Assembly (NCBI GenBank): GCA_018434355.1
Contig: JAHDPL010000010.1
Span: 137,164-201,163 of the forward strand
Source of the DNA: Sporomusaceae bacterium
GTDB lineage: Bacteria > Bacillota > Negativicutes > UBA1444
Reading direction: 5' to 3'
DNA length: 64,000 nt
A program made the translations under genes and the position numbers. The notes beneath the pieces are model-generated. The model had not been told where the DNA came from. It ran no database searches and worked only from the letters and a program-made list of their open reading frames with translations. Below are positions 1,896-56,731 of this stretch, one piece after another. Positions within the stretch are counted from its first letter, which is position 1, and each line of letters starts with the position of its first letter.

Positions 1896-2606
1896 ATGGA
1901 AGAGAAACAGTTGTACGAAGGAAAAGCGAAAAAGGTGTTCGCCACGGCGAATCCCGATGAATACCGCGTATATTTCAAGGACGACGCTACGGCATTCGAT
2001 GGAACCAAACGCGGCACCATCATCAACAAAGGCATCATCAACAACAAGGTGTCGGCCTTCTTCTTCAACCTGCTTGCCGAGCACGGAATTCCCCACCACT
2101 TTGTCAAACTTATCAGCGACCGCGAGATGATCGTCAAAACGCTGAAAATCCTTCAGGTCGAAGTGGTTGTGCGCAATGTGGCGGCCGGCAGCCTGGCCAA
2201 ACGGATCGGCTGGGAAGAGGGAACCAAGATGCCGATGCCGGTGCTGGAGCTATACTACAAAAACGACGAATTGCATGACCCGTTGATCAACGAATACCAC
2301 ATTCAGGCGATGGGGTTGGCGACACCGGAGCAGCTCAGCGAAATCAAAGCCTATGCGCTCAAAATCAATGACATCCTGTCCGCGTACCTGAAAACCAAAA
2401 ACGTCGAACTGATTGATTTCAAACTGGAATTCGGCGTGCACAAAGGGCAGGTCATCCTTGGCGACGAAATCTCGCCGGACACTTGCCGGCTGTGGGACAG
2501 CGAAACCAAGCAAAAACTGGACAAAGACCGTTTCCGCCGCGACCTCGGCAATGTGGAAGACGCCTACCGCGAAGTGCTGAAGCGGTTGACCGGCGAGGTC
2601 ATGTAA
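1896..2606 (+). CDS. purC: SAICAR synthetase PurC
   Basis: PurC condenses CAIR with aspartate in an ATP-dependent step. The start is the ATG at 1896, eight bases after GGAGG (1883-1887), giving [15 protein letters not shown] and 236 residues, the usual short bacterial length; an upstream TTG at 1866 lacks a ribosome site. Family blocks [23 protein letters not shown] and [11 protein letters not shown] are present. It lies between purE and purF with only four bases before purF, so it is clearly co-transcribed. Confidence 0.96.
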
Positions 2607-2610
2607 ACTG

Positions 2611-4071
2611 ATGAACGAGGATAAACTGCATGAAGAATGCGGGATTTTCGGCATCTATGCACCTGGAGTCGATGTAGCGCTTAACACCTATTGGGGTCTC
2701 TATGCCCTGCAGCATCGCGGCCAGGAAAGCGCCGGCATCTGCGTGGCCAATGGCTATGCGATGGACATCCGGCGCGGCATGGGGCTGGTCAACGAAGTGT
2801 TTCGCGATTCGCTGCCGGAAATGCCGGGTCATATCGCAATCGGTCATGTGCGCTACTCCACCACTGGTTCCAGCCTGGCGGCGAATATTCAGCCACTGTT
2901 GGTTTCCTACGCCGGCGGCCGCATCGCGATGGCGCACAACGGTAACCTGACCAATGCGCCGCTGCTGCGCAAAAAACTGGAACAGGGCGGCAGCGTATTT
3001 CAGACGACGGTCGACAGTGAAGTGATCGTCAACCTGATCGCCCGTTCCAAAAAGAAGAATGTCGAGGACCGGATTGCCGAAAGCATGAATCAGGTCGAAG
3101 GCGCCTACTGTCTGGTGATTATGACCGAAGACCGTTTGATCGGCGTGCGCGACCCGAACGGCTTCCGACCGCTCTGCCTGGGCCGGATGCCGGACGGCGG
3201 CTGGGTGTTTGCCTCGGAGTCCTGTGCGCTCGACGCGGTCGGCGCGATGATGATCCGCGATGTCGAACCCGGCGAGATGCTGATCGTCGATGGAAAAGAA
3301 CTGCGTTCGCGGCGTCTGGTTGCCGAGAAGCGACCGCCGGCGCTGTGCGTATTCGAATATATCTATTTCGCCCGACCAGACAGCGTGATCGACGGGCAGA
3401 GCGTTCATTTGGCCCGCTTGGCGATGGGGCGTCAATTGGCAATTGAAAGCGGCTTGAAAGCAGACATCGTCATTTCGGTGCCGGATTCCGGCACAACAGC
3501 CGCGCATGGCTTCAGTTCTCAATCCGGGATTCCATTTGCCGAGGGATTGATCAAAAACCGTTACATTGGGCGGACCTTTATTCAACCAGAGCAGAAAAAA
3601 CGCGACGCCGGCGTGCGGATCAAACTGAATGCGGTGGCGCCGGCAGTAGCAGGAAAATCCGTCATCATGGTCGACGATTCGATTGTCCGTGGCACGACCA
3701 GTGGCCGGATCGTGCGGATGCTGCGCGACGCCGGTGCGAAGAAAATTCATATGTGCGTCAGTTCGCCGCCGATCGTATATCCCTGCTATTATGGCATTGA
3801 CACCACCGCCCGCAAGGAGCTGATCGCCAGTTCCAAGACGATTGAGCAGATCCGCCGATACATCGGCGCCGATTCCCTATATTACTTGTCGCTGGAAGGC
3901 CTGCACAAAGCAGTGACGCAAGTGGCGCTGGGGGGGCTATGCTCCGCATGTTTCCACGGTGAATATCCGACCGAGGTCGCCTGCGCTAAGGAATTGGAAG
4001 GCTCAAAATTTGTCTTTGAAGAAACGGCTTGCGCCATGGGGCAAAAACCGAAAGGGAGGAAACGCCCGTGA
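2611..4071 (+). CDS. purF: Amidophosphoribosyltransferase PurF
   Basis: First committed enzyme: transfers glutamine ammonia to PRPP, giving phosphoribosylamine. It is 486 residues. A short N-terminal propeptide (MNEDKLHEE) precedes Cys10, the catalytic nucleophile of the class II glutaminase domain. The phosphoribosyltransferase half contains the PRPP loop VIMVDDSIVRGTT. Cysteines matching the [4Fe-4S] ligands of the Bacillus-type enzyme are visible in CVFEYIYF, YPCYYGI and GLCSACFHGEYPTEV, so it is probably the oxygen-sensitive Fe-S form. The stop codon overlaps the purM start. Its substrate PRPP is the likely ligand of the upstream riboswitch. Confidence 0.97.
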   Translation: MNEDKLHEECGIFGIYAPGVDVALNTYWGLYALQHRGQESAGICVANGYAMDIRRGMGLVNEVFRDSLPEMPGHIAIGHVRYSTTGSSLAANIQPLLVSYAGGRIAMAHNGNLTNAPLLRKKLEQGGSVFQTTVDSEVIVNLIARSKKKNVEDRIAESMNQVEGAYCLVIMTEDRLIGVRDPNGFRPLCLGRMPDGGWVFASESCALDAVGAMMIRDVEPGEMLIVDGKELRSRRLVAEKRPPALCVFEYIYFARPDSVIDGQSVHLARLAMGRQLAIESGLKADIVISVPDSGTTAAHGFSSQSGIPFAEGLIKNRYIGRTFIQPEQKKRDAGVRIKLNAVAPAVAGKSVIMVDDSIVRGTTSGRIVRMLRDAGAKKIHMCVSSPPIVYPCYYGIDTTARKELIASSKTIEQIRRYIGADSLYYLSLEGLHKAVTQVALGGLCSACFHGEYPTEVACAKELEGSKFVFEETACAMGQKPKGRKRP

Positions 4072-5135
4072 ACGAGAAACAACCGGAGCAGGGGCTGAGC
4101 TATCGTGACGCCGGGGTGGACATCGACGCGGGAAATCGTTCGGTTGACCTGATGAAAGCGCATGTCCGGGCCACCTTCCGCAAGGAAGTGTTGTCGGACA
4201 TCGGCGGTTTTGGTGGGCTGTTCGCCCTGGATATGAAAAAATACGCCGAACCGGTGCTGGTTTCCGGCACGGACGGCGTGGGAACGAAACTGAAACTGGC
4301 GTTCATGATGGACCGGCACGATACGATCGGCCAGGATGCGGTGGCGATGTGCGTCAACGATATTCTGGTGCAGGGTGCGGAGCCGCTGTTCTTCCTTGAC
4401 TATCTGGCGGTCGGCAAGCTGGAGCCGGAAAAAGTCGCCAATATCGTCAGCGGCGTGGCAAGGGCCTGCAAAGAGTCTGGTTGTTCCCTGATTGGCGGCG
4501 AGACGGCCGAGATGGCAGGTTTTTATCCGGATGGCGAATATGATGTGGCCGGGTTTGCTGTCGGCGTGGCCGAAAAATCACGCCTGATCACCGGCGAGAC
4601 GATTGCGTCCGGTGATGTATTGCTCGGTTTGCCTTCGACCGGCGTTCATTCCAACGGGTTCTCGTTAGTGCGCAAGATCTGTTTCGATCATCAGAAATTC
4701 ACGGTGGATACCCATGTGCCGGAACTCGGCAAGACATTGGGTGAAGAATTGCTGACACCGACGCGATTGTATCCGAAGGTTTGCCTACCGCTGATCGAAA
4801 ACTATCAGATCAAGGGAATGGTCCATATTACCGGCGGCGGATTTTACGACAATATTCCCCGGGTGTTGCCGGCAGGCTGCGGCGCGGTGGTCAATACGGA
4901 AAACTGGCCGCGTCCGGAAATCTTCTCTTTGTTGCAAAAGTGGGGTCAAGTGGCCTGGCCGGAGATGTACCGGACGTTCAATATGGGAATCGGCATGATC
5001 CTGGTTGTTTCCGAACAGACGGCGCCGCTGGTGCAACGGGCCCTGGCCGAGCAGAACGAGATCTGTTACCGGATCGGCCGGGTGGTGACCGGCGATCAGA
5101 CAGTAGAGCTGAAGGGAGGCGTGTTTGGTGCGTAA
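4068..5135 (+). CDS. purM: Phosphoribosylformylglycinamidine cyclo-ligase PurM
   Basis: PurM closes the imidazole ring of AIR using ATP. The GTG start at 4068 overlaps the purF stop and follows AAAGGGAGG; it yields LSYRDAGVDIDAGN, the conserved N-terminus. The 355-residue protein has the DGVGTKLKLA motif and GGETAEMAGFY of the AIR synthetase fold. The purL, purQ and purS genes for the preceding FGAM synthetase step are not in this window. Confidence 0.97.
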   Translation: MNEKQPEQGLSYRDAGVDIDAGNRSVDLMKAHVRATFRKEVLSDIGGFGGLFALDMKKYAEPVLVSGTDGVGTKLKLAFMMDRHDTIGQDAVAMCVNDILVQGAEPLFFLDYLAVGKLEPEKVANIVSGVARACKESGCSLIGGETAEMAGFYPDGEYDVAGFAVGVAEKSRLITGETIASGDVLLGLPSTGVHSNGFSLVRKICFDHQKFTVDTHVPELGKTLGEELLTPTRLYPKVCLPLIENYQIKGMVHITGGGFYDNIPRVLPAGCGAVVNTENWPRPEIFSLLQKWGQVAWPEMYRTFNMGIGMILVVSEQTAPLVQRALAEQNEICYRIGRVVTGDQTVELKGGVFGA

Positions 5136-8610: not shown

Positions 8611-8818
8611 GGAACCGCTGAATAATTCGTTTTCTGTTGATTGTCATCAAGATTCGCATCGACTTGCGACTGATTTTGTCGGTCGGCCAGAAAAGCTCCA
8701 TCCGTCGCTTCTAGCCTTAAATCAACATCCCTGTTGATTTAACCAGACAAAATTACGTCACTGCGTCGGCGAATTCTACGACTCCAATCCAAGGAAAACT
8801 GCTTTATTCAGCGGTTCC
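8611..8818. mobile_element. MITE-like palindromic element, 208 bp, non-coding
   Basis: Perfect 15-bp terminal inverted repeats GGAACCGCTGAATAA (8611-8625) and its complement (8804-8818) are flanked on both sides by TAAA (8607-8610 and 8819-8822), a possible 4-bp target duplication. The two halves are imperfect complements along most of their length (for example GATTTTGTC near 8672 with GACAAAATT near 8746). The centre holds a perfect 11-bp hairpin, TTAAATCAACA with TGTTGATTTAA (8717-8742). No reading frame is present, so any transposition would need a transposase in trans. Confidence 0.7.
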
Positions 8819-8831
8819 TAAAGACCTAAAG

Positions 8832-8873
8832 ACTGTTGCTGATCCAGGATTCTGGCTCGACAGCAGTTTTTTT
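8832..8873 (+). terminator. Terminator of the purine operon
   Basis: ACTGTTG (8832-8838) pairs with CAGCAGT (8861-8867) around an inner CCAG/CTGG stem, followed by seven T. It lies beyond the MITE-like element, so the element is inside the purD transcript. Confidence 0.75.
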
Positions 8874-8890
8874 CGTTACGCTGGATTCGG

Positions 8891-10294
8891 CTACTCTACG
8901 TCGAAGATTTTACCGGGATTCAGAATCAGATTGGGATCGAGTGCCAGCTTGATCCGGCGCATCATGTCCAGTTCCACCGGGTCGGTGAACTTCTGCATCA
9001 AGTCCTTGCGTTTGTAGCCGATGCCATGTTCGCCGGACAGGCGGCCGCCCAGCCGGTAAATGATTTCATACAGTTCATTTTCAAACCCGGTCAGACGCTG
9101 ATCCCACTCGTCTTCAGGCAATTCACCGCGGAATAAGGTCAGGTGGATATTACCGTCGCCAGCGTGGCTGACCATGCGGATCGCCAAGCCGTATTTGTTA
9201 GCGATGCGATTACTGACCGCCACCGCTTCGGGAATACGGTCAACCGGGACCACGATGTCTTCAAAGGATTGGACTGCGCTTTCCAGACGAGTCGCCTCGG
9301 TAAAAGCCTTGCGGGCTTTCCAGATCTTTTGCGAATCGGCGACCAGCACGGCAATTGCGCCATTTTCACTGCAAAGCTCATCCAGGGTTGCGGTTTTGTT
9401 TTCAAGATCTTGCTCGTTGTCCGCTTCCAACTGGATGATCATATAGTGCCCGTGTTCACTGTGAGGCAGTCTTTCCTGTAAAAAACGTTCGACGCTTTGT
9501 ACCGCCGCATTGTCCATGAATTCGACGCAGGTGGGCGTCAAGCCGGCCCGCAGCATCAGGCCGACGATGGCGATGGCGGAATCGACATCGGTAAAAACTG
9601 CTAATACATCAATGACCTGGGCGGGCAAAGGTTTAAGTTTTAACGTAGCCTGCGTGATGATGCCCAGCGTTCCTTCCGAGCCCATGACAAGCTGTTCCAG
9701 GCAATAACCGGTGGTGTTTTTGTTTAGGCGACTGCCAAGCCGCACGATTTCACCCAGCGGCATCACCACTTCAAATTCGTAGACCTGGTGCCGGGTAGTG
9801 CCATACTTCACGGCCCGGTTGCCCCCCGCATTGGTGGCAATGTTGCCGCCGATAAAGCAACTGTCGCCGCTACAGGGGTCGCCGGCATAAAACAGACCGA
9901 CCGCTTTGGCGGCTTTTTGCACTTCGTCAGTCCGGACCCCGGCCTGTACGGTCATATACATCGCTGTCGCGTTGACCTCGATGATCTGGTCAAACCTTTC
10001 CAGCGACAGTACTACGCCGCCGCCCACAGGAACCGCTCCGCAGGCAAGCCCGGTGCCGGCGCCGCGCGGCACGACCGGAAAATTAGCCCGATTGGCGAGT
10101 TTGACGACACGGGAGATCTGTTCGGTTGTCGCCGGCAATACGACTGCTTCCGGCAGACAGGCATATTTGCTGTCCGGCGTTTCATCATTCGCATAGTTGG
10201 CCAGTTTTTCCTCATCGGAAAAGCAATGTTTTTCGCCAACAATTAACTTTAATTCGGTAAGAATATCGGCAGTAATCGGGTTGTATTTTTTCAT
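8891..10294 (-). CDS. FAD-binding oxidase, GlcD / D-lactate dehydrogenase type
   Basis: Flavoprotein of 467 residues that oxidises a 2-hydroxy acid (glycolate, D-lactate or a longer homologue). The N-terminal PCMH-type FAD domain spans about residues 30-215, with VVPRGAGTGLACGAV and GGNIATNAGGNRAVKYG. The C-terminal FAD-oxidase domain has the metal or substrate histidine block SHAGDGNIHLT near residue 370 and SGEHGIGYKR near 425. The ATG follows AAAGGATGGGAG. No etfAB or GlcE/F partner is adjacent, so the electron acceptor is unknown. Convergent with purD. Confidence 0.9.
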   Translation of the reverse strand: MKKYNPITADILTELKLIVGEKHCFSDEEKLANYANDETPDSKYACLPEAVVLPATTEQISRVVKLANRANFPVVPRGAGTGLACGAVPVGGGVVLSLERFDQIIEVNATAMYMTVQAGVRTDEVQKAAKAVGLFYAGDPCSGDSCFIGGNIATNAGGNRAVKYGTTRHQVYEFEVVMPLGEIVRLGSRLNKNTTGYCLEQLVMGSEGTLGIITQATLKLKPLPAQVIDVLAVFTDVDSAIAIVGLMLRAGLTPTCVEFMDNAAVQSVERFLQERLPHSEHGHYMIIQLEADNEQDLENKTATLDELCSENGAIAVLVADSQKIWKARKAFTEATRLESAVQSFEDIVVPVDRIPEAVAVSNRIANKYGLAIRMVSHAGDGNIHLTLFRGELPEDEWDQRLTGFENELYEIIYRLGGRLSGEHGIGYKRKDLMQKFTDPVELDMMRRIKLALDPNLILNPGKIFDVE

Positions 10295-44983: not shown

Positions 44984-45026
44984 AGTTGTCAGCGGGCGTT
45001 TCCTCAGTGGAAACGCCCGCTGACAA
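44984..45026 (+). repeat. Perfect 19-bp inverted repeat between dctP and dctQ
   Basis: GTTGTCAGCGGGCGTTTCC (44984-45002), a 5-base loop, then its exact complement (45008-45026). No T tail follows. Such intercistronic hairpins often protect the upstream mRNA and keep binding-protein levels high. Confidence 0.7.
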
Positions 45027-45066
45027 CGCCATTTGCGAGTTCAAAGAAGGAATGGAGAGCTGCCGT

Positions 45067-45543
45067 ATGTCGTGGTGGAAAAAACTGGACGACAATTTCG
45101 AAGAATACCTTGTGATGTTTTTAATGCTGGTGATGATCATTACCGCGTTTGCCCAGGTTATCTTTCGATTCGTTATCCAGATGTCGCTGGATTGGTCGGA
45201 AGAGCTGGCTCGTTACGCATTTCTCTGGTGCATGTTCATTTCGGCCGGTATGGCAGTGAAACACCGCCGCCATATCAAAGTGGAATTCATCATGGAAATG
45301 TTGCCGAAAAAAGTGCGGTTTGGCTTGGAAATCATTTCAGATTTAATCTGGATGGCATTTTGCCTGTTGTTGGTCAAAGACGGGATCGGGCTATTGGAAT
45401 TTGTCAAAACGCAAGTTTCACCCTCGATGGAAGTTCCCTTCAAATATATTTATACCAGTCTGCCGGTCGGCGCCGCATTGATGTTCCTGCGTCTGGTGCA
45501 ACAGATGGTTCGTAGGTTCCGGGGAGGTGCTGCTGGTGTCTGA
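45067..45543 (+). CDS. dctQ: TRAP transporter small permease DctQ family
   Basis: Membrane protein of 158 residues with four helices. The ATG 45067 follows GGAG at nine bases. The motif SLDWSEELARYAFLWCMFI near 45 and HRRHIKVEFI near 70 are typical. It partners DctM and its end overlaps dctM. Confidence 0.93.
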   Translation: MSWWKKLDDNFEEYLVMFLMLVMIITAFAQVIFRFVIQMSLDWSEELARYAFLWCMFISAGMAVKHRRHIKVEFIMEMLPKKVRFGLEIISDLIWMAFCLLLVKDGIGLLEFVKTQVSPSMEVPFKYIYTSLPVGAALMFLRLVQQMVRRFRGGAAGV

Positions 45544-46837
45544 GGCCGGAATGGTTGCTGCCATCTTGCTTGGCGGCTTTAGCGTATTATTCCTGATCGG
45601 GGTTCCGATTGCGATTTCCCTTGGCGTGGCGACGGTTCTGGCGCTGATGTATCTGGGAACGCCGACAATGGAACTGGTGCAGGGCGCGATGATCGCCTCA
45701 GATTCGTTCCCGTTCCTGGCGGTTCCCTTCTTTATTCTGGCCGGACAACTGATGGAAACCGGCGGTCTGTCGAGGCGGTTGATCGGCGTTGCTTCTTCGC
45801 TGATGGGCCATGTGACCGGCGGACTGGCGATGGTTACGATCATGGCCTGCGCGTTTTTTGCCGCAATATCCGGTTCTGGTCCGGCAACGACCGCTGCGAT
45901 CGGTTCGATCATGATCCCGGCCATGCTCAAGCGTGGCTATACGAGAGAGTTTGCCGGCGCAGTCAGTTCATCGGGCGGTACGCTGGGAATCCTGATCCCG
46001 CCAAGTATTCCGATGGTCGTGTATGGCATTGTAGGCAACGTGTCGATCACCGATATGTTCTTGGCCGGCATTATCCCTGGCATACTTGTTGCTGTTGCCT
46101 TTATGGTAACTGCTTGGCTGATATCTCGAAAGAACGGCTTTCATGGTACAGGGGAACCATTTTCCGCGATGAAGTTTCTGAAAGCGCTGAACGAAGCAAA
46201 AGCCGCGCTAATGGCGCCGTTGATCATCCTCGGCGGCATCTACGGCGGAATCTTTACGCCGACGGAAGCGGCGGTGGTGGCGGTTGTCTATGGCATGCTG
46301 TGCGGATTTTTCATTTACCGAGAACTAAAGATATCCGACGTGCCGAGAATGTTGATGGAAACAGCGATGATTACCGGTAGCGTCATGATTATCATCGGTT
46401 TTGCCACCGCGTTCGGCCGTCTGATGACAATGTACCAGATTCCGCAGATGGTGGCGACTTGGATGCAAGGCGTGACCAACGATAAATTCCTGCTATTGAT
46501 GATTATTAACGTATTTTTGCTGTTTGTCGGCATGTTCATGGAGACGGTGGCTCAAATCATCATCCTGACGCCATTATTTATGCCGATGGCTTCTAAGCTC
46601 GGTATTGACCCGATCCAGCTCGGCATCGTGTTCGTTATCAACTGCGAACTTGGCTTTTTGACGCCGCCGGTCGGTGTAAACCTGTTTGTCGCGTCAAATA
46701 TTGCCAAGGTATCGATTGAGCGGTTGAGCAAAGCGGTAATCCCGTTCATCATTGCGCTGTTCGTCAGTGTGGCGGTGATTTCCTATTTTCCGGACATCGC
46801 CCTGTGGTTGCCGAAATATTTGAAGTCGATCCGATAG
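45536..46837 (+). CDS. dctM: TRAP transporter large permease DctM family
   Basis: Transport subunit of 433 residues with about twelve helices; the GTG at 45536 is eight bases after GGGGAGG, inside the dctQ end. Family motifs include FFAAISGSGPATTAAIGSIMIP near 105, GGTLGILIPPSIPMV near 145 and LGFLTPPVGVNLFVA near 375. It uses an ion gradient, commonly sodium. Terminator follows. Confidence 0.95.
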   Translation: MSEAGMVAAILLGGFSVLFLIGVPIAISLGVATVLALMYLGTPTMELVQGAMIASDSFPFLAVPFFILAGQLMETGGLSRRLIGVASSLMGHVTGGLAMVTIMACAFFAAISGSGPATTAAIGSIMIPAMLKRGYTREFAGAVSSSGGTLGILIPPSIPMVVYGIVGNVSITDMFLAGIIPGILVAVAFMVTAWLISRKNGFHGTGEPFSAMKFLKALNEAKAALMAPLIILGGIYGGIFTPTEAAVVAVVYGMLCGFFIYRELKISDVPRMLMETAMITGSVMIIIGFATAFGRLMTMYQIPQMVATWMQGVTNDKFLLLMIINVFLLFVGMFMETVAQIIILTPLFMPMASKLGIDPIQLGIVFVINCELGFLTPPVGVNLFVASNIAKVSIERLSKAVIPFIIALFVSVAVISYFPDIALWLPKYLKSIR

Positions 46838-46934: not shown

Positions 46935-47011
46935 ATACTTTCAACTGCACTTATCAAGCTGTTGGGGTCACGCTGTGTAGCGAATCGACAACACTGCACG
47001 GATTTTTTTGA

Positions 47012-47041
47012 TTGACGCGGTGATTTTAATCAGAGTATAGT
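47012..47041 (+). promoter_or_regulatory. Sigma-70 promoter of the sigma-54 activator gene
   Basis: TTGACG (47012-47017) and TATAGT (47036-47041) are 18 bp apart. A half-site TGTAGCG (46976-46982), the same motif as the paired sites after the gene, lies about 30 bp upstream, so autoregulation is possible. Confidence 0.6.
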
Positions 47042-47113
47042 TAATTACAGCCTATGCGGATGCAGGGTTGAAATGATTCGGTGCAAAGCACTAGTCGGAA
47101 AGAAGGGTGAACC

Positions 47114-48490
47114 ATGGATCGCCTGAGCGAAACGTACAAAGAGTTTTTGGAAACGGTGCTGGAACAAGTCGATGGAACCATTGTCACCGATTACGAAGGG
47201 CGAGTTGTCTATCTCAATAAAAAATACGCCGAAATGCTCGGCGTTGATGTGGCAGCATCCCTTGGCAAACATGTTCGAGAAATCATTCCGCAAACCCGCA
47301 TGGATATCGTGGCCAAAACCGGGCAAGAGGAAATTGGCTCGGTTCATATGATCAACGGCATTACCCCGGTTGTCTGCAATCGGATTCCGCTGGTCAAAGA
47401 GGGAAAAACGATCGGGGCGGTAGCTTTTACGACGTTTCGCAAGTTGGATGAAGTCGCGGGCTTGTTCAGTGAAATCAATCGTCTCAACCTGGAGCTCAAG
47501 GAGTACAAATCCGAACTGATCAAATTGCGGGAAACGAAGTACACGCTGGACCAAATTGTTGGTTCTTCTGTTCAATTGAATGCCGTCAAGGAAATTATCA
47601 AAAAAGTGGCGCCATCCAAACTGACTGTTCTCATCAGCGGCGAAACCGGTACCGGCAAGGAGCTTTTTGCCCAAGCGATCCATCAATTGAGTCCGCGAAA
47701 ACATAAACCATTCATCCGCATTAACTGCGCAGCAATCCCCAAAGACCTTTTGGAATCGGAACTGTTCGGCTACGAGGAAGGCGCGTTCAGCGGAGCGAAA
47801 AAGGGTGGTAAACCGGGGAAATTTGAATTGGCCAATAGCGGTACGTTGCTGTTGGATGAAATCAACGAGTTGCCGGTTTATCTACAGTCGAAGCTCTTGC
47901 GCATCATTCAGGAACAGGAAATTGAACGAGTCGGCGGCGTAAAGACGATCGCACTGGACGTGCGATTGATATGCACGACCAACCGAAATATGCAGGAATT
48001 GGTCGCTAATGGCGAATTTCGCGAAGACCTGTTCTACCGGATCAATGTGGTCGAAGTGGCGATTCCGGCCTTGCGTGAGCGCAGTGAAGACATCAGCGAG
48101 CTGACGCAACATTTTATCAAAAAAATCAATAGCAATCACGGCTTGGGGATTTCCGGCATCCAGGAAGATGTCCTCAAACTGTTTGCCGCATACAAATGGC
48201 CGGGCAATATCCGCGAGCTCGAACATGTCATGGAACGGGCGGCTGTCATGGCTATTTCCGGCGAACTGAATTCCCAGCATTTCGATTATCTGATGCCTCG
48301 ATTGATCGGTGATATTAGTGTTGAATCCGGAAAAACGGCTGGGTTGGAGCGTGTAAAAACCATAGCGGAAAAGCAGGCGATCCTCAATGCGTTGGCAAAT
48401 CATCACGGCAATAAAACGCTCGCAGCGAAAGAACTAAATATTCACCGCACAGTGCTTTATAGCAAACTAAAAAAGTACGGCATCGTGTAG
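47114..48490 (+). CDS. Sigma-54-dependent transcriptional activator (PAS, AAA+, Fis HTH)
   Basis: Enhancer-binding protein of 458 residues. An N-terminal PAS sensor (about 8-110, GTIVTDYEGRVVYLNKKYAE) is followed by a coiled linker (120-145). The AAA+ domain has Walker A GETGTGKE near 175, the sigma-54 contact loop as GAFSGA near 222 (Ser in place of the usual Thr) and Walker B TLLLDEINELP near 245. A C-terminal Fis-type helix-turn-helix (NKTLAAKELNIHRTVLYSKLKK) ends the protein. It very likely drives the adjacent sigma-54 promoter; the PAS ligand is unknown. Confidence 0.94.
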   Translation: MDRLSETYKEFLETVLEQVDGTIVTDYEGRVVYLNKKYAEMLGVDVAASLGKHVREIIPQTRMDIVAKTGQEEIGSVHMINGITPVVCNRIPLVKEGKTIGAVAFTTFRKLDEVAGLFSEINRLNLELKEYKSELIKLRETKYTLDQIVGSSVQLNAVKEIIKKVAPSKLTVLISGETGTGKELFAQAIHQLSPRKHKPFIRINCAAIPKDLLESELFGYEEGAFSGAKKGGKPGKFELANSGTLLLDEINELPVYLQSKLLRIIQEQEIERVGGVKTIALDVRLICTTNRNMQELVANGEFREDLFYRINVVEVAIPALRERSEDISELTQHFIKKINSNHGLGISGIQEDVLKLFAAYKWPGNIRELEHVMERAAVMAISGELNSQHFDYLMPRLIGDISVESGKTAGLERVKTIAEKQAILNALANHHGNKTLAAKELNIHRTVLYSKLKKYGIV

Positions 48491-48526
48491 CGAACCCGCT
48501 ACATCGGTGCAGCGACATCACTACAC
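48486..48526 (+). promoter_or_regulatory. Paired upstream activator sites for the sigma-54 regulator
   Basis: Site 1 is TGTAGCG-N4-CGCTACA (48486-48503), a perfect inverted repeat overlapping the regulator stop codon. Site 2 is TGCAGCG-N4-CACTACA (48508-48525), an imperfect copy. Their centres are 22 bp apart, two helical turns, so both face the same side of the DNA. They lie roughly 90 bp upstream of the -24/-12 promoter. Confidence 0.75.
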
Positions 48527-48527
48527 A

Positions 48528-48573
48528 AAAACCTCCTTTAACGGCTAAAAACAGCCATTAAAGGGGGTTTTTT
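48528..48573 (+). terminator. Terminator of the activator gene
   Basis: AACCTCCTTTAA and GGCT pair with AGCC and TTAAAGGGGGTT, then a run of six T. It lies between the activator sites and the sigma-54 promoter. Confidence 0.85.
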
Positions 48574-48576
48574 CAT

Positions 48577-48592
48577 TGGCACGCAAATTGCA
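48577..48592 (+). promoter_or_regulatory. Sigma-54 (-24/-12) promoter
   Basis: TGGCACGCAAATTGCA is an exact match to the consensus TGGCACG-N4-TTGCA. It is preceded by an activator gene and paired binding sites, and followed by the BKACE gene with an 80-90 base leader. Confidence 0.92.
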
Positions 48593-48680
48593 ATATAGGA
48601 AAAAGAACAAGCAAGGAGATAGCACAACGCAAAGATTCTTCGTGTTCAATACGTTCAATGAAAAAGGAGAAGATCAAAGA

Positions 48681-49604
48681 ATGGCGCAAAAACTAATTAT
48701 TACCGCAGCGGTGACCGGGGCGGTCCACGTCCCCAGCATGACACCCTATCTACCGATTACCCCGGAACAGATTGTTGATGATGCGGTTGCCGCAGGGGAG
48801 GCCGGCGCTGCCGTTGTCCACATTCATGCCCGTAACCCGGAGACCGGTCGACCGACCAGCGATTTGAAACTTATGGCTGACATTGTCTCCGGAATCAAAA
48901 AACGCTCGGAAATCGTCATTTGCATTACCACCGGCGGACAACTGGGAATGACGCTGGAGGAGAGGATCGCCCCGGTATCGGTGTTCAAACCGGAGCTTGC
49001 CTCCTGCAATGCCGGTTCGGTTAACTTTGTATTATCGCCGGCGGCCGAAAAAATCAAGCAACCGATTTATGATTGGGAGATCCCTTTTCTGGCGGGGACG
49101 TACGATTTGGTATTCGCCAATACCTTCAAAGGTCTGGAGTATTATGTGACAACCATGAATCAACATGGAACTTTGCCCGAGTTTGAAGTATATGACGTGG
49201 GCATGATCAATAACATCGCTTATTTCATCAAGCAAGGCATCGTAAAAAAACCGGTCTATATCCAGTTTGTCATGGGAATACTCGGCGGTATCCCCGCGAC
49301 AATAGACAATCTGAACTTTTTGGTCAAAACGGCGAAAGAACAAATCGGCGAATTTGAGTGGTCATGCGCTGCAGCCGGCCGCCGTCAAATGCCGCTGACC
49401 ACTGCTGCTGTGGCGATGGGCGGCAATGTCCGGGTCGGTCTGGAAGACAATATTTTCATAAAGCCGGGAGTTCTGGCCAAATCCAGCAGAGAGCAAGTGG
49501 CGTTGATACGAAGCGTTGCAGACGCTCTTGGCAGAGATATCGCCTCCCCTGCCGAAGCGAGAAGCATTTTAAGACTAAAAGGAAATGAAAATGTCGGTTT
49601 TTAG
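48681..49604 (+). CDS. BKACE-family beta-keto acid cleavage enzyme (DUF849)
   Basis: TIM-barrel enzyme of 307 residues; ATG after AAAGGAGA. The zinc histidine pair is in VVHIHARNPETGRP near 48, with GSVNFVLS near 113 and a C-terminal GLEDNIFIKPGVLA. The family condenses a beta-keto acid with acetyl-CoA, giving acetoacetate and a new acyl-CoA; the founding member is 3-keto-5-aminohexanoate cleavage enzyme of lysine fermentation. Other lysine genes (kamA, kdd, kal) are absent here, so the substrate may be another beta-keto acid. It is the first gene under the sigma-54 promoter. Confidence 0.92.
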   Translation: MAQKLIITAAVTGAVHVPSMTPYLPITPEQIVDDAVAAGEAGAAVVHIHARNPETGRPTSDLKLMADIVSGIKKRSEIVICITTGGQLGMTLEERIAPVSVFKPELASCNAGSVNFVLSPAAEKIKQPIYDWEIPFLAGTYDLVFANTFKGLEYYVTTMNQHGTLPEFEVYDVGMINNIAYFIKQGIVKKPVYIQFVMGILGGIPATIDNLNFLVKTAKEQIGEFEWSCAAAGRRQMPLTTAAVAMGGNVRVGLEDNIFIKPGVLAKSSREQVALIRSVADALGRDIASPAEARSILRLKGNENVGF

Positions 49605-49643
49605 CAATAGGATGAAATTTACTAGATAAGGGGATCGACAAAG

Positions 49644-51101
49644 ATGATGCGAAAAATCGGCATAATCGGCGCGGGAACGATGGGGCATGGCATTGCCGAG
49701 TCCTTTGCGATGCATGGATACGAGGTGAATTTGTTCGATGTTCACCTTGACGCGTTGGAAAAAGCACAGTCCTTGATCGAACAAGAACTGGCGATGTTAG
49801 CGGAAGAGGGCTTGATCGTTCAAGCCGAATTGCCAAAAATCCTGGGGAAAATCAAACTGTTTACCGACCTGAAGCAAACGGTCGGAGACCGCGACTATGT
49901 CATAGAATGTGCGCCGGAAAATATGGAACTGAAGAAAAACCTGTTCAAGCAATTGGACGAACTGTGTCCGGCCAAGACCATCCTGGCCAAGCGGTTTTAT
50001 CTGGTATTTTTAGGCGCTTCTCTATTTGCCAAATACATGGATGATTCCGGCGCGGCCAAAAAGATCGCCCTGGCCATCATGAGCCGGGTGGGCAAAGACA
50101 AGCCATTTCCCATGTTGGTGGCGATATGGGTGATTACCTCCATCCTGACCTATGGCGGAGTAAATTTGTGGGTGGTTGCTTTTGCACTGATTCCAATCGC
50201 TTTGCCTATTTTTAAAGAAATGAATTTACCCTGGCATCTGTGCCTTGCCCCCTTCATGCTCGGCCTGGGGACGGCTACCATGACGATGTTCCCCGGCACT
50301 CCGGCGATTCAGAATATCATGCCGACAAAGTATTTGGGAACGACTGCCGCTGCCGCTCCGCTGATCGGTGTGGTTTCTTCCGTCATTTGTTCTGTCCTTG
50401 GGCTGTATTACACCAAATGGGCTTTGAAGAAAACGCAACAGCGCGGCGAATCCTTTGCTCAACCCGATAATTTGACGATTGGCAATGTGGATAAAGTCGA
50501 ACTGCCCTCGCTGTTGGTATCGATTATTCCACCAGCAGCACTGTTGATTATTCTAAACGTTTTTAAAATCGATATTGTGTATTCGCTGCTTGCGGGGACA
50601 CTTCTGTGCATCGTATTGTTTTATAAACATATTGGCAACCACTTGGATACTCTGAACAAAGGGGCGGTAAATACTATCCTGCCCCTGGTAAACACCTGCG
50701 CCGACGTTGGGTTTGGCAAGGTAGTCGCCGCAACAACCGGTTTTACCATCGCGGTGAATGCCTTGATGGATATTCCCGGACATCCGCTGATTTCGATGGC
50801 CGTCGCCACCAATTTGCTTGCGGGATTGACCGGTTCGGGGTCCGGCGGTTTGGGTATCGCCCTGGAAGTGTTGATTCCCAAGTATCAGGCATTAGGGATT
50901 AATCCGGAAATCATTCACCGAATTGCCTCCATGTCTTGCGGCGGCTTGGACACTATGCCGCACAATGGCGCAGTAATAACCATCCTGGCGGTATTCGGAT
51001 TAACTCATAAAACCGGATACAAGCACATGTTCGCCACTTGCGTGGTCGTACCGCTTATAACGCTGGTTCCGGCGATTATGATGGCGATACTGTTTTATTA
51101 A
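49644..51101 (+). CDS. Fusion: truncated 3-hydroxyacyl-CoA dehydrogenase joined to N-truncated GntP permease
   Basis: One open frame of 485 residues. Residues 1 to about 114 match the NAD-binding start of 3-hydroxybutyryl-CoA dehydrogenase (KIGIIGAGTMGHGIAESFA; VIECAPENMELKKNLF; ELCPAKTILA). The catalytic His/Glu part and C-terminal domain are missing. From about residue 115 (KRFYLVFLGASLFAKYMDDSGAAKK) it is a GntP-family permease, with about 370 of the usual 440-460 residues and lacking the first membrane helices. At the junction near 49970-49992 the heptamer GGCCAAG occurs twice. The simplest reading is an in-frame deletion between two adjacent genes. A functional product is doubtful. Ribosome site AAGGGG precedes the ATG. 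Confidence 0.8.
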   Translation: MMRKIGIIGAGTMGHGIAESFAMHGYEVNLFDVHLDALEKAQSLIEQELAMLAEEGLIVQAELPKILGKIKLFTDLKQTVGDRDYVIECAPENMELKKNLFKQLDELCPAKTILAKRFYLVFLGASLFAKYMDDSGAAKKIALAIMSRVGKDKPFPMLVAIWVITSILTYGGVNLWVVAFALIPIALPIFKEMNLPWHLCLAPFMLGLGTATMTMFPGTPAIQNIMPTKYLGTTAAAAPLIGVVSSVICSVLGLYYTKWALKKTQQRGESFAQPDNLTIGNVDKVELPSLLVSIIPPAALLIILNVFKIDIVYSLLAGTLLCIVLFYKHIGNHLDTLNKGAVNTILPLVNTCADVGFGKVVAATTGFTIAVNALMDIPGHPLISMAVATNLLAGLTGSGSGGLGIALEVLIPKYQALGINPEIIHRIASMSCGGLDTMPHNGAVITILAVFGLTHKTGYKHMFATCVVVPLITLVPAIMMAILFY

Positions 51102-51126
51102 AAATATCTTGCTGCCGATATGAATG

Positions 51127-51191
51127 AAAAATGATAGAGACTTGCATTGCATACCTTGGTGGGGATTGCATGGCAAGTCTCTGTCATTTTT
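51127..51191 (+). terminator. Terminator after the fusion gene
   Basis: AAAAATGATAGAGACTTGC (51127-51145) pairs with its complement (51173-51191) over 19 bp with one wobble, ending in five T. Confidence 0.8.
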
Positions 51192-51327: not shown

Positions 51328-52884
51328 ATGGATGCCATAAAACCGGAATATTATAAAACAGGGGCAGTCTTCAACAACGTGCTGATTATGCTGGGAATCA
51401 TGACGGCGGCGACAATGTTGTCGTTTTTTTTCCGGCATGTTGATTTTCACGAATCCAACATCATTATGGTTTATATCTTGGGCGTACTGTTGGTGGCAAA
51501 GCAAACGGACGGGCATTTTTACGGCATCTTCGCATCGATCATCGGTGTGCTAACTTTTAATTTCTTTTTTACCGAGCCTTATTATACGTTTAACGTGTAT
51601 CGACCTGATTACCCGGTAACGTTTGCGATCATGCTGATTGTAGCGGTGATTACCAGTACCCTGACATCGCGAGTCAAACGGGAATTGCAGAACACTTCGC
51701 TGCGGGAACAGCGGACGCAAACACTGTATCAAATAGCGGCGAATTTGATCAAAGTGCGCAGTATCAGCCAAATCATCGATGTTGGCAGCAACGGTATCGC
51801 TACGATGTTTGGTCGCTCCGTGGTCGTATATGCAGAAGCTACGATCGAGCAGCAGGGGGCGCCGTTTGTTTGCGCGTATCAAAACGATGAACGGGCGGCT
51901 GTGCTATCTTCGCATAACGAAGTGCAAGTCGCGGCTGAAACGATGAAAACCGGTGTAATGAGTGGCGCCGGGACCGTCCATTGTCCCGATTCCGTCGCCT
52001 GTTACTTGCCGATTAAGGGGCAAAGCGGCGTGCTTGGAGTGATTGGGGTCGATTGTTTCAATAAGACTTTTTTATCTGAAGAACAAAAAAGCCTTTTTGA
52101 GGCAGCCACTTCACAAATTGCGCTGGCCCTTGAGCGGGACAGGCTATCGGAAAAGCAACAGAAGGCAAAACTGGACATGGAGCGGGAACGTCTGCGCGGC
52201 AATTTATTGCGGGCGATTTCCCATGATTTGCGAACTCCGCTGGCGGGGATCATGGGCGCAACGGCAACGATTCTCAATAATGGAGCGAGGATTGACCCAG
52301 CCGTTACCAAAGAATTGTTGCAGAATGTGTATGAAGACGCAGGCTGGCTGGTTCACACGGTGGAAAACATTTTAAGCATCACCCGGATTGATGAAGGCAG
52401 GATGGAGATCAAGCCCGCGTTGGAAGCGGTGGAAGAGATTGTATCAGAGGCGCTCTCTCGCGTAAAAAAAATAGCTGGGCAGCATCAGATTGAGGTCGCT
52501 ATTCCTGATGAACTGCTGCTGCTGCCGATGGATGGGCTGCTGATTGAACAGGTGCTGGTGAATTTGCTGGACAATGCGATCAAATACACGCCGGAAGGAT
52601 CAATCATCACGTTGCAGGTGAAACGGCATGACGGGGAAATGGTGTTTGAGGTTGCCGATAATGGGCCTGGAATTCCTGAGGAAAACCTGACACAGGTATT
52701 CGATCGTTTCTTTACCGCGACGGTGGAAAAGGGGGCAGGGCGACGCGGGACCGGCTTGGGACTGGCGATCTGCAAGTCGATCATCAGGGCGCACGGCGGT
52801 GAAATTATTGCATTCAACAATCCGGCGGGCGGAGCGACGTTTCGCTTCTGGTTGCCGCTAAAGGAGCAACAAGATGGACAATAA
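51328..52884 (+). CDS. KdpD-like sensor histidine kinase lacking the KdpD N-terminus
   Basis: Membrane kinase of 518 residues. A DUF4118 four-helix membrane domain (about 15-110, with FNFFFTEPYYTF) leads to a GAF-like domain (about 130-275). HisKA follows with phospho-acceptor His in AISHDLRTPLAGI near 298, then HATPase with NLLDNAIKYTP near 411, VADNGPGIPEE and GTGLGLAICKSI. The large cytoplasmic KdpD and universal-stress domains of classical KdpD are absent, so this is the short form. It overlaps the response regulator gene by 11 bases and lies upstream of trk genes. Confidence 0.92.
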   Translation: MDAIKPEYYKTGAVFNNVLIMLGIMTAATMLSFFFRHVDFHESNIIMVYILGVLLVAKQTDGHFYGIFASIIGVLTFNFFFTEPYYTFNVYRPDYPVTFAIMLIVAVITSTLTSRVKRELQNTSLREQRTQTLYQIAANLIKVRSISQIIDVGSNGIATMFGRSVVVYAEATIEQQGAPFVCAYQNDERAAVLSSHNEVQVAAETMKTGVMSGAGTVHCPDSVACYLPIKGQSGVLGVIGVDCFNKTFLSEEQKSLFEAATSQIALALERDRLSEKQQKAKLDMERERLRGNLLRAISHDLRTPLAGIMGATATILNNGARIDPAVTKELLQNVYEDAGWLVHTVENILSITRIDEGRMEIKPALEAVEEIVSEALSRVKKIAGQHQIEVAIPDELLLLPMDGLLIEQVLVNLLDNAIKYTPEGSIITLQVKRHDGEMVFEVADNGPGIPEENLTQVFDRFFTATVEKGAGRRGTGLGLAICKSIIRAHGGEIIAFNNPAGGATFRFWLPLKEQQDGQ

Positions 52885-53575
52885 ACCTGTAATCCTGGTT
52901 GTGGAGGATGATAAGCCGATACGCAAATTTATCGGCGTTTCGCTGGAAACGCAAGGGTATCGCTGCATCGCCGCCGAAAACGGAAAAACGGCGATTTCGT
53001 TGGTGTTTTCGCATAACCCGGACTTGGTGATATTGGATTTGGGTTTGCCTGATATCGATGGGATCGCTGTAATCGAAACGATTCGACCCATTACCAAAGC
53101 GCCGATCATCGTGGTTTCGGCGCGCGGGAGAGAACGGGAGAAGGTTGAGGCGCTTGACTGTGGTGCGGACGATTATCTGACCAAGCCCTTCAGTGTGGAA
53201 GAGCTGTTGGCGCGAATCAGGGTCGCGTTTCGACACGCAAACCAGAATCAGCATGGCGATGTGCATGCGACAGAAAAATTTCGGGTTGGCGAATTGGAAA
53301 TTGACCTGGAAAAACGACGCGTGTTTATGGAAAATGAAGAAGTTCACTTGACACCGATCGAATATAAGCTCATGGTGTTGATGGCCAAGCATGCGGGACG
53401 CGTGTTGACGCATAATTATATTTTGAACGAAATCTGGGGTAGTTACGCCGGCGGTGACGTTCAGTCCTTGCGGGTGTTCATGGCAAATATGCGCCGAAAA
53501 ATCGAAAAATACCCGGCGCAACCGAGGTATATCCTGACGGAAGTCGGGGTGGGATACCGCCTGGCGGATGAATAG
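52874..53575 (+). CDS. KdpE-like OmpR-family response regulator
   Basis: Protein of 233 residues with a receiver domain (phospho-Asp in VILDLGLPDIDG near 55, Lys in YLTKPFSVEELLARI near 104) and a C-terminal winged helix (LTPIEYKLMVLMAKHAGRVLTHNYIL). It is the partner of the overlapping kinase. The target is probably the trk operon that follows, since no kdpFABC is in the window. Terminator after the gene. Confidence 0.94.
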   Translation: MDNKPVILVVEDDKPIRKFIGVSLETQGYRCIAAENGKTAISLVFSHNPDLVILDLGLPDIDGIAVIETIRPITKAPIIVVSARGREREKVEALDCGADDYLTKPFSVEELLARIRVAFRHANQNQHGDVHATEKFRVGELEIDLEKRRVFMENEEVHLTPIEYKLMVLMAKHAGRVLTHNYILNEIWGSYAGGDVQSLRVFMANMRRKIEKYPAQPRYILTEVGVGYRLADE

Positions 53576-53606
53576 AACCGGCTGCTAGCAAATAACTGAA
53601 CTGCAG

Positions 53607-53637
53607 GAAACCTTGCCAAGAGGTTTCTTTTTTTTTT
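53607..53637 (+). terminator. Terminator after the response regulator gene
   Basis: GAAACCT (53607-53613) pairs with AGGTTTC (53621-53627), followed by ten T. Confidence 0.8.
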
Positions 53638-53758
53638 GCAAATCTTCATGCGGTCTTTATGTCCGTCAGGCGGTTCTTAACGCCATTTTAATCGGAAGTC
53701 TGCTACGATGAATCTGAAAACAGTTACGCCACGAACAGGCGAAATCAAGGGAGGGCAT

Positions 53759-54157
53759 ATGACGGACAGGACGGTTGCACAGGCAACTTATAAGGAGAAA
53801 ATTAGCCGAGCGATTCATGCAATGCGGGACAAGGAGTACCAGTTGGCACAACTATTGATCGCAGATGCGATGCGGGACGACGCCGCCGCGCCGGCGGCGC
53901 ACAATCTGTTGGGCGTGTTGGCCGAACTGGGGGGCGAAACGGCTTTGGCAGGAAAACACTACCGGGCGGCTTATGCGCTCGAGCCGTCGTATAAACCGGC
54001 AGCGCGCAATTTGGACCGCATTACCTCCATCCGCTACAGAATGGATGACGTTGCGCCAGACTATGGCGATGGCGTGGAAACAGTCGAAGAGAACAACGGC
54101 TATATCATCGAATACGATGACAAAAACATTGGCCGCTTGAAAAAGAAGGGGATATGA
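53759..54157 (+). CDS. Small TPR-like protein heading the trk operon
   Basis: Cytoplasmic protein of 132 residues; ATG 53759 after AAGGGAGG. Two TPR-like helical hairpins (about 12-45 and 47-85: AHNLLGVLAELGGETALAGKHYRAAYALEPSYKPAARNLDRI) are followed by an acidic tail (YGDGVETVEENNGYIIEYDD). It overlaps the first trkA gene by four bases. Function unknown; the coupling suggests a regulatory or assembly partner for the potassium system. Confidence 0.75.
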   Translation: MTDRTVAQATYKEKISRAIHAMRDKEYQLAQLLIADAMRDDAAAPAAHNLLGVLAELGGETALAGKHYRAAYALEPSYKPAARNLDRITSIRYRMDDVAPDYGDGVETVEENNGYIIEYDDKNIGRLKKKGI

Positions 54158-54594
54158 TGAAAAACCATGACGCGAGCTATGTATTAGTCGCCGGCTGCGG
54201 CCGACTCGGTGCGAATATTGCTTCGGTATTATCGGCGCAGGGGAAAGACGTGGTTGTGTTGGACGTTGCAAGTACAGCGTTTCGCAAGTTGTCACCGGAC
54301 TATGGCGGCTTTTCGATTGAAGGCGATGCAACGGATCTGGCTACATTGGAAAGAGCCGGCATAGAAAAAGCCGGAATTGTTGTCGCTGCTACCAACGATG
54401 ACAACACCAATGTTATGATCGCGCAAATTGCCAGCAAGATTTTTGCGGTTCCCAAAGTTATTTCGCGACTCTATGACACGGAAAAGGAAATCGTGTATCA
54501 AGACTATCCGATTCGGTTGATCTATCCGTCCAGGTTGTCGATTAGCGAATTTGAAAAACTAATGGCGTGTGCAGAAACGGCGGTGTTGAAATGA
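54154..54594 (+). CDS. TrkA-type nucleotide-binding protein, N domain only
   Basis: Protein of 146 residues forming one RCK/KTN Rossmann domain. The glycine motif AGCGRLGANIA (near 14) and DVAS after strand 2 fit NAD(H) or ATP binding; GDATDLATLERAGI and AATNDDNTNVMIAQ are typical. There is no TrkA_C domain. It overlaps the TPR gene and the second TrkA gene by four bases each. It probably forms a mixed gating ring with the second protein. Confidence 0.88.
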   Translation: MMKNHDASYVLVAGCGRLGANIASVLSAQGKDVVVLDVASTAFRKLSPDYGGFSIEGDATDLATLERAGIEKAGIVVAATNDDNTNVMIAQIASKIFAVPKVISRLYDTEKEIVYQDYPIRLIYPSRLSISEFEKLMACAETAVLK

Positions 54595-55259
54595 ACATAG
54601 TCTTGGTCGGCGGACGTAGGCGGGTTGATTTTTTGGCAAAATCGCTTTTGGCCAAAGGGCACCGCATCACAATCGTTCATGATGATGAGTCGTTTTGCAA
54701 ATTTTTGTCTCGCACACATGATGCGACGGTGGTTTGTGGTGATGGCAGCAAACCTTACATTCTGACGGACGCAAATATCGAAGGCGCCGATGTTTTGATT
54801 GCATTGACCCCCAAAGACGCCGACAACTTGGTCATCTGTGAATTGGCAAAAAAAGTGTACAGCGTCAAGCGAGCTTTTTCCACCGTCAGCAACCCGCGTA
54901 GCGTGGAAGTGTTTAAGAAACTTGGCATCAATACGGTAATCAGCGCAACGCATATCGTGGCGGAGATCATCGAACAGATGGCGGCGATCAACGAAATCGC
55001 CAATTTTATCCCGCTCGAACAGGGGCAGATCGTGTTGATGGAGATCATGGTGCGGGCAAACTCGCCGATTTGCGGAAAGTCGATCGCCGATATCGGAATT
55101 CCCGAACAGGCGATCATCGGTTGCATTTTACGCGGGGCAAATACCATCATTCCGCGCGGCAAAACTACCGTTACGGCGGAAGACAAGCTGATAATATTGT
55201 CACCGCCGCAAATCCAGCAAGAAATCATCAAGCTGGTTGTGGGGAGAACTGATATCTGA
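54591..55259 (+). CDS. TrkA-type regulator, N and C domains, degenerate glycine motif
   Basis: Protein of 222 residues: a Rossmann domain (1-135) and a TrkA_C ligand-binding domain (about 140-220, IMVRANSPICGKSIADIGIPEQ). The expected GxGxxG is replaced by VGGRRRVDFLA, so nucleotide binding by this copy is doubtful. GDGSKPYILTDANIEGADVLIALT keeps the rest of the fold. It overlaps trkH by one base, so TrkH, this protein and the N-domain protein are probably made together. Confidence 0.88.
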   Translation: MNIVLVGGRRRVDFLAKSLLAKGHRITIVHDDESFCKFLSRTHDATVVCGDGSKPYILTDANIEGADVLIALTPKDADNLVICELAKKVYSVKRAFSTVSNPRSVEVFKKLGINTVISATHIVAEIIEQMAAINEIANFIPLEQGQIVLMEIMVRANSPICGKSIADIGIPEQAIIGCILRGANTIIPRGKTTVTAEDKLIILSPPQIQQEIIKLVVGRTDI

Positions 55260-56731
55260 TGAATGTGAATAAGCGGATTGTCGAAAGCTATCGAATTGTG
55301 TTTGGCTACATCGGTGTAATTGTGATGATTCTTGCCGGAATCTTGTTGTTGCCGCTGCTGGTTTTGTTGGTCTATCCGGAAGAAATGGAGTATGCGATTC
55401 ATTTCGTGGTCCCGGCGGCGACGGCGTTGATTTCGGGATTGCTGCTCAGTCTTTTTTTGCGAGGCCAAAGCGATGGTCGGCTAACGCAAAGACAAGATGC
55501 GATTATTGTGCTGGCTGTTTGGATCGCGGCGGTGGTTTTGTCTGCCGCGCCGTTTATGTTGTCGAAACAGCTGAACTTTACGCAGGCGATTTTTGAAGCA
55601 GTCAGCGGCTGGACGACGACCGGATTGTCCGTTGTTGATGTTGCCGTGACGCCTAAAGTTTTCTTGATGCACAGAAGTATCATGCAGTTTTTTGGCGGAG
55701 TCGGCATCGTGTTGGTGATGCTCTCAGCACTGTCAGGCACCTATGGCATGCGATTGTATTGCGCCGAAGGGCATGCCGACAAGCTGTTGCCCAACCTGGC
55801 CAAGTCGGCTCGGCTGATTTTATCGATTTATGCAGGATATGTTCTGTCCGGCACACTATTATACGTGGCATTTGATATGCCGCTGTTTGATGCGATCAAC
55901 CATTCCATCGCGGCGCTGTCTACCGGCGGATTTTCAACCAAAACCGACAGTATTGGCGCATATAAAAGCCTGCCGATCGAATTGACCACGATCATTCTGA
56001 TGCTGCTCGGGACGACAAATTTTGCCGCCCACCTGCTGTTGTTACGGGGCAATATCAAGAAGTTCTTTCTGATAGGTGAAATTCGCTTTATGCTGATTTT
56101 ACTGGCCTTTTCGATTCCGTTGGTCGCTTTCGTCGGCTTGAACGATCTTTACGGCAATGCGTCGCAGGGAATCAGGATTGCCGCATTTGAATTCGTTTCC
56201 GCTCTGACTACGACCGGGTTTTCCACGGTTTCCTACAGTGATTGGCCGCCGTTTGCGATTTTTGTCATGATTTTACTAATGCTGGTCGGTGGCGGTACGG
56301 GTTCAACCGCTGGCGGTCTGAAGCAAAATCGGATCTACCTGATGGGAAAGGCTTTCTACTGGAATCTGACGAAAAACTTCCAACCTGAGCATGTAGTCAG
56401 GGAACGCTATATTTACCGACCGGAAGGCAGGGTCTATATTGAAGACAAACAACTAACCGAGACGTTCAACTTCGCGTTTCTATATATGGTGCTGTACTTT
56501 GCCGGAGTGGCGATTTTGTTGTCGCATGGTTACCCGCTGCAGGATTCCTTGTTTGAGTACGCTTCGGCAATTGGTACGGTTGGCCTGTCGGTGGGTTTAA
56601 CGACCGCAGATGCGCCACCACTTGTTTTGTGGGCGGAAATCATCGGGATGTTTGTCGGTCGGCTGGAGATTTATGTGATTTTTGTCGCTGTAATAAAGCT
56701 TTATAAAGACGCGAAGCATGTATTGGAGTGA
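55259..56731 (+). CDS. trkH: Trk-type potassium uptake membrane protein TrkH
   Basis: Membrane protein of 490 residues with about ten helices and four pore repeats. Selectivity-filter loops are seen near SGWTTTGLSVVD, LSTGGFSTKTDS, LTTTGFSTVSYSD and SAIGTVGLSVGLT. GGGTGSTAGGLKQNR near 350 is the intramembrane loop that gates the pore. It takes up potassium (with H+ or Na+) under control of the two TrkA-type proteins. A bidirectional terminator follows. Confidence 0.95.
   Translation: MNVNKRIVESYRIVFGYIGVIVMILAGILLLPLLVLLVYPEEMEYAIHFVVPAATALISGLLLSLFLRGQSDGRLTQRQDAIIVLAVWIAAVVLSAAPFMLSKQLNFTQAIFEAVSGWTTTGLSVVDVAVTPKVFLMHRSIMQFFGGVGIVLVMLSALSGTYGMRLYCAEGHADKLLPNLAKSARLILSIYAGYVLSGTLLYVAFDMPLFDAINHSIAALSTGGFSTKTDSIGAYKSLPIELTTIILMLLGTTNFAAHLLLLRGNIKKFFLIGEIRFMLILLAFSIPLVAFVGLNDLYGNASQGIRIAAFEFVSALTTTGFSTVSYSDWPPFAIFVMILLMLVGGGTGSTAGGLKQNRIYLMGKAFYWNLTKNFQPEHVVRERYIYRPEGRVYIEDKQLTETFNFAFLYMVLYFAGVAILLSHGYPLQDSLFEYASAIGTVGLSVGLTTADAPPLVLWAEIIGMFVGRLEIYVIFVAVIKLYKDAKHVLE

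Follow-up and report, generated by a model that had tools for sequence, protein, structure and literature searches.

A keto-acid operon of a Sporomusaceae bacterium carries an open reading frame that joins the amino terminus of a 3-hydroxyacyl-CoA dehydrogenase to a GntP-like permease deprived of its first membrane helices. The frame lies in a stretch of 64,000 nucleotides (the window), and a complete version of the same operon is found on another contig of the genome, C33. It is probable that the fusion reflects a recent loss by deletion in a redundant operon copy and that the fused product is without dehydrogenase or transport activity.

Organization of the operon and of the fused reading frame

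The features of the window operon, all on the forward strand, are the following.

47006..47044, +, sigma-70-type promoter TTGACG-18-TATAGT of the regulator gene (consensus scan; 92% identity upstream of the C33 regulator)
47114..48490, +, PAS / sigma-54-dependent (PrdR-like) activator, 458 aa, intact (88% amino acid identity to the C33 copy)
48576..48591, +, predicted sigma-54 -24/-12 promoter TTGGCACGCAAATTGC upstream of BKACE (sole match in the window; equivalents in all four operons compared)
48672..49604, +, BKACE, intact (NF053538, 3,5-dioxohexanoate:acetyl-CoA acetone transferase; PF05853; 435.5 bits)
49644..51101, +, fusion ORF, 485 aa (ORF list)
49644..49989, +, dehydrogenase amino-terminal part, a Rossmann fragment without catalytic residues (aligns to C33 (L010) up to position 8655; PF02737)
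49986..49989, +, deletion junction at the microhomology GCCA, where the window operon is 813 bp shorter than that of C33 (both L010 alignment blocks contain these bases)
49986..51101, +, permease residues 60-430, a part that lacks TM1, TM2 and one half of helix 3 (gap-free alignment to L010 9465-10584; intact-permease model)
51138..51190, +, inverted repeat AGAGACTTGC...GCAAGTCTCT resembling an intrinsic terminator, with a T run after it (read from the sequence; a terminator-like site overlaps the 3' arm)

The fusion ORF starts at an ATG and runs as one unbroken frame of 485 codons. Residues 4-115 match 3HCDH_N (PF02737, 4.2e-32) and feature the Rossmann NAD-binding motif GxGxxG (GIIGAGTMGHGIA) in the amino terminus; the match covers profile positions 1-111 and ends there, at 111 of 180. 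The best NCBIfam matches of the fusion are dehydrogenases, nearly all of which stop near residue 115, and the carboxyl-terminal 3HCDH domain (PF00725), present in the C33 paralog, was not found in the fusion by profile search. Residues 114-485 have 95% identity to the intact 430-aa permease of the same genome (371 residues) and 84-88% identity to two permeases in other genomes, while more distant permeases are 49-52% identical, the homology extending over the transport core. The reading frame, the PF02737 match and the paralog alignment bear out the original prediction of an in-frame fusion between these two partners. The switch, expected near residue 114, is placed at residue 115 by the paralog alignment.

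The permease had been assigned to the GntP family and described as lacking its first membrane helices. The latter holds, as 59 residues are missing, and the family name has to be weakened: neither the fusion nor the intact C33 paralog gave a match to PF02447 (Pfam GntP) in profile searches. The label "GntP-like" is kept because the intact C33 permease has ~37% identity, over the full length, to another protein of this genome that PF02447 does match. For the permease (L010 9288-10580) and its homologs the Pfam and NCBIfam models all stay below cut-off, even though this permease travels with BKACE genes.

The regulator promoter is kept in both operon copies and, together with the -24/-12 element, suggests that the window operon is probably still transcribed. 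The inverted repeat at 51138..51190 is probably the operon end, in a region where terminator-like sites are no commoner than chance. Directly upstream of the operon (44986-46837) the window codes, as judged by eye, for the small and large membrane subunits of a TRAP transporter that is not found beside the C33 copy. The downstream segment (51328-56731, also by eye) codes for a KdpD-like sensor histidine kinase, a response regulator, two TrkA-like proteins and a TrkH-like potassium transporter.

The window BKACE clears the NF053538 cut-off of 430 bits only narrowly. It is one of four close BKACE genes in the genome (C33:42348-43268, which is L010 2346-3317 on the minus strand; C33:47346-48266; C36:148505-149422; window 48672-49604) that have 67-100% identity to the C33 copy, two of them being ~4 kb apart on C33. 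A more distant fifth BKACE, next to genes for a regulator and a dehydrogenase, is found on C16 (L062). Keto-acid cleavage seems to be expanded in this genome.

The intact operon copy and the deletion junction

Contig C33 codes for a sigma-54 activator of 458 aa, a BKACE of 307 aa, a dehydrogenase of 313-321 aa, depending on the start codon, and a permease of 430 aa, all complete. Their order is that of the window operon, with which they are co-linear gene for gene before and after the junction. The tetranucleotide signatures of C33 and the window agree (r 0.94-0.97), so C33 probably belongs to the same organism.

In the DNA alignment to C33, window positions 47097-49989 align at 80.6% and the alignment resumes over 49986-51105 at 82.7%, while the C33 coordinates skip from 8655 to 9465. 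The window is without exactly 813 bp (271 codons) of the C33 operon. It retains the dehydrogenase codons through Ala114 and the permease codons from Ala60; the lost segment comprises 199 dehydrogenase codons (residues 115-313) with the stop, the 33-bp gap, in which the ribosome-binding site of the permease gene lies, and the first 59 codons of that gene. The deletion of a dehydrogenase carboxyl terminus and a permease amino terminus from a BKACE operon, as originally proposed, is thus supported by the C33 paralog, and also by two further genomes (see below). The only places in the genome where the missing segment was detected are C33 itself and C16, the latter with a dehydrogenase of 70% similarity; relocation of the 813 bp was rejected as no relocated copy is found.

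Both alignment blocks include the bases GCCA at 49986-49989, which defines, as judged from the paralog, a microhomology of 4 bp at the junction. The heptamer GGCCAAG had been proposed as the recombination repeat. Two copies are indeed present, at 49970 and 49985, but only the second overlaps the true junction. The first lies 15 bp inside the dehydrogenase, in retained sequence where C33 has GGCCAAA, and is ordinary dehydrogenase sequence; the heptamers were therefore rejected as recombination sites, the paralog placing the exchange at GCCA. A deletion mediated by a repeat would leave one repeat copy, not two.

Occurrence in other genomes

Two genomes from another family of the class (G322 and G319) have the same four-gene operon with dehydrogenase and permease intact. 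The operons of C33, G322 and G319 share with the window the genes for the PrdR-like sigma-54 activator, BKACE, 3-hydroxyacyl-CoA dehydrogenase and GntP-like permease, their order and strand, and the sigma-54 promoter. Comparison of the operon in relatives, suggested with the original prediction, reveals two complete genes in these operons where the window copy, minus 813 bp, has one fused ORF.

No other fusion was found in three overlapping sets of genomes, namely 60 relatives, 380 members of the class and 398 members of the phylum, together at most ~840, and the window itself was the only end-to-end alignment. Identical fusions across many species, envisaged at the outset as the mark of an established architecture, are not observed in these genomes, and a conserved fusion family was rejected on that basis. 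The only same-genus genome compared (G001, 73% complete) has no close relatives of the fused protein or of BKACE, and nothing relevant on a matching fusion was found in the literature.

The Deltaproteobacteria contig L039, where residues 2-485 of the fusion are seemingly covered, was rejected as a second case since it carries two separate genes in permease-dehydrogenase order. The association of permease and dehydrogenase as separate genes is wider, being found for example on L039, with BKACE, and on L011. L039 also has one frame (2255-4237) that leads from a ketopantoate-reductase-like domain to a BKACE-like domain, with at least 661 aa before it runs off the contig; this is apparently a fusion of two pathway enzymes.

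Structure and topology of the fused protein

The fused polypeptide could in principle be functional and kept by selection, as a truncated permease that is anchored in the membrane or senses NAD. This is unlikely, as no relative searched carries the fusion and parts of both halves are gone. The AlphaFold2 model of the fusion is good for both halves (mean pLDDT 86), which would favour function, though such models of truncated proteins are no proof of folding. The junction residues 111-116, with pLDDT below 50, are the least confident part of the model and speak against function.

The first 113 residues of the model superpose at 1.1-1.2 A on 3-hydroxybutyryl-CoA dehydrogenases (PF02737 + PF00725; PDB access codes 6aa8 and 4kue). 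Compared to these enzymes the fusion is without the second part of the NAD domain, the catalytic residues and the carboxyl-terminal domain. The lost region holds, by alignment, the catalytic Ser/His/Glu/Asn region, which is established for the 3-hydroxyacyl-CoA dehydrogenase family. The loss of this catalytic half argues against a functional fusion.

The intact permease model (pLDDT 85) matches the ion-transporter fold (MleN model, INDY, TRAP) and has helices at residues 3-20, 25-40 and 44-79; after the deletion the first two are gone and the third starts only at residue 60. The permease part of the fusion shares the fold match of GntP-like permeases of the ion-transporter fold (MleN, INDY, TRAP-M) and differs from them in lacking helices 1 and 2 and half of helix 3. 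The lost part includes A19, G22 and P30, which do not vary among 28 homologs, and the absence of scaffold helices with such residues is a further point against function. Residues 75-98, after helix 3, are rich in Lys/Arg (4.1 per sequence), which by the positive-inside rule places the start of helix 3 outside. No signal sequence is evident in the dehydrogenase fragment. The charge distribution suggests that this cytosolic fragment would attach on the wrong membrane side, which also disfavours a functional fusion.

Selection and age of the deletion

The open frame, the constraint on both halves and the intact promoter and regulator are what a functional fusion would be expected to display, but the constraint is explained equally by a recent deletion. 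There are no stops or frameshifts in the 371 permease codons or the 115 dehydrogenase codons of the fusion. The dN/dS values of the window relative to C33 are 0.083 for the regulator, 0.034 for BKACE, 0.070 for the dehydrogenase part and 0.023 for the permease part. Synonymous divergence between the two operon copies is ~0.9-1.8, so they are old. It is comparable for the regulator, BKACE and both halves of the fusion, and a mixed origin of the halves is unsupported.

Amino acid changes found only in the window or only in C33, counted at positions where G322 and G319 agree, number 11:12 in the regulator, 10:3 in BKACE, 6:3 in the dehydrogenase and 8:2 in the permease. In the last three genes together the window has 24 unique changes versus 8 in C33, while four-fold site changes are 21 versus 24; four-fold third-position changes over all genes are 30 versus 36. 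Constraint on the structural genes may be slightly weaker in the window copy, for BKACE as much as for the fusion. The dN/dS comparison of the four operons shows no accelerated decay of the dehydrogenase fragment, an idea rejected because the dehydrogenase is variable in all four (G322-G319 dN/dS 0.105).

In simulations of neutral drift the permease half, which has no stop and no more than 12 changes specific to the window, fits neutrality for at most roughly the last 4% of the window branch since the two operons separated, a rough figure that takes half of the pairwise dS as branch length. If the fused product is useless the deletion must consequently be recent, as both halves are open and look constrained. 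Either the deletion took place recently or selection still acts on the fused protein, two options that one genome does not separate; the choice leans towards recent and broken.

Origin of the fused gene

An error of assembly or binning, in which the assembler dropped 813 bp of an intact second operon or C33 comes from another organism, is about as unlikely as a maintained protein. The genome is a draft of 55 contigs in which the 16S gene was not detected, but the operon copies differ by 17-24% in DNA while collapse requires near-identical repeats. The collapse of two genes raised in the original prediction is hence very unlikely for the window operon and C33. The only tract shared at the junction is 4 bp long, the reading frame is exactly kept, and the agreement in composition argues against a binning error. 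The least probable reading is a young selected chimera in which the truncated NAD-binding domain replaces the first permease helices and alters, rather than abolishes, the transport or sensing role.

The preferred explanation is loss by deletion. The window holds a second copy of a keto-acid operon under sigma-54 control that codes for the regulator, BKACE, 3-hydroxyacyl-CoA dehydrogenase and permease. A deletion at GCCA removed dehydrogenase residues 115-313, the gap and permease residues 1-59. As the lost length, 813 bp, is divisible by 3 and the two genes shared a frame, what is left reads as a single ORF; the frame is kept by chance in 1 of 3 deletions. The operon and the deletion are read directly from the alignments, whereas loss of function and redundancy are what we infer: the product most likely has neither activity, and the loss would have been tolerated because the intact C33 operon supplies both functions. 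The case shares short microhomology, in-frame joining of neighbours and a spare copy with deletion-generated chimeric genes and fusion pseudogenes in redundant operons, from which no difference was found. Most likely this is a recent and ordinary case of gene breakage and not a novel type of protein.

Within a single genome the states before and after are both preserved here, and they document cleanly how two neighbouring genes of an operon become an in-frame chimera through a short deletion. From ORFs of this kind, annotation can wrongly derive a "dehydrogenase-permease" domain architecture. If the product were functional, which the present evidence does not favour, this would be a gene fusion caught at birth.
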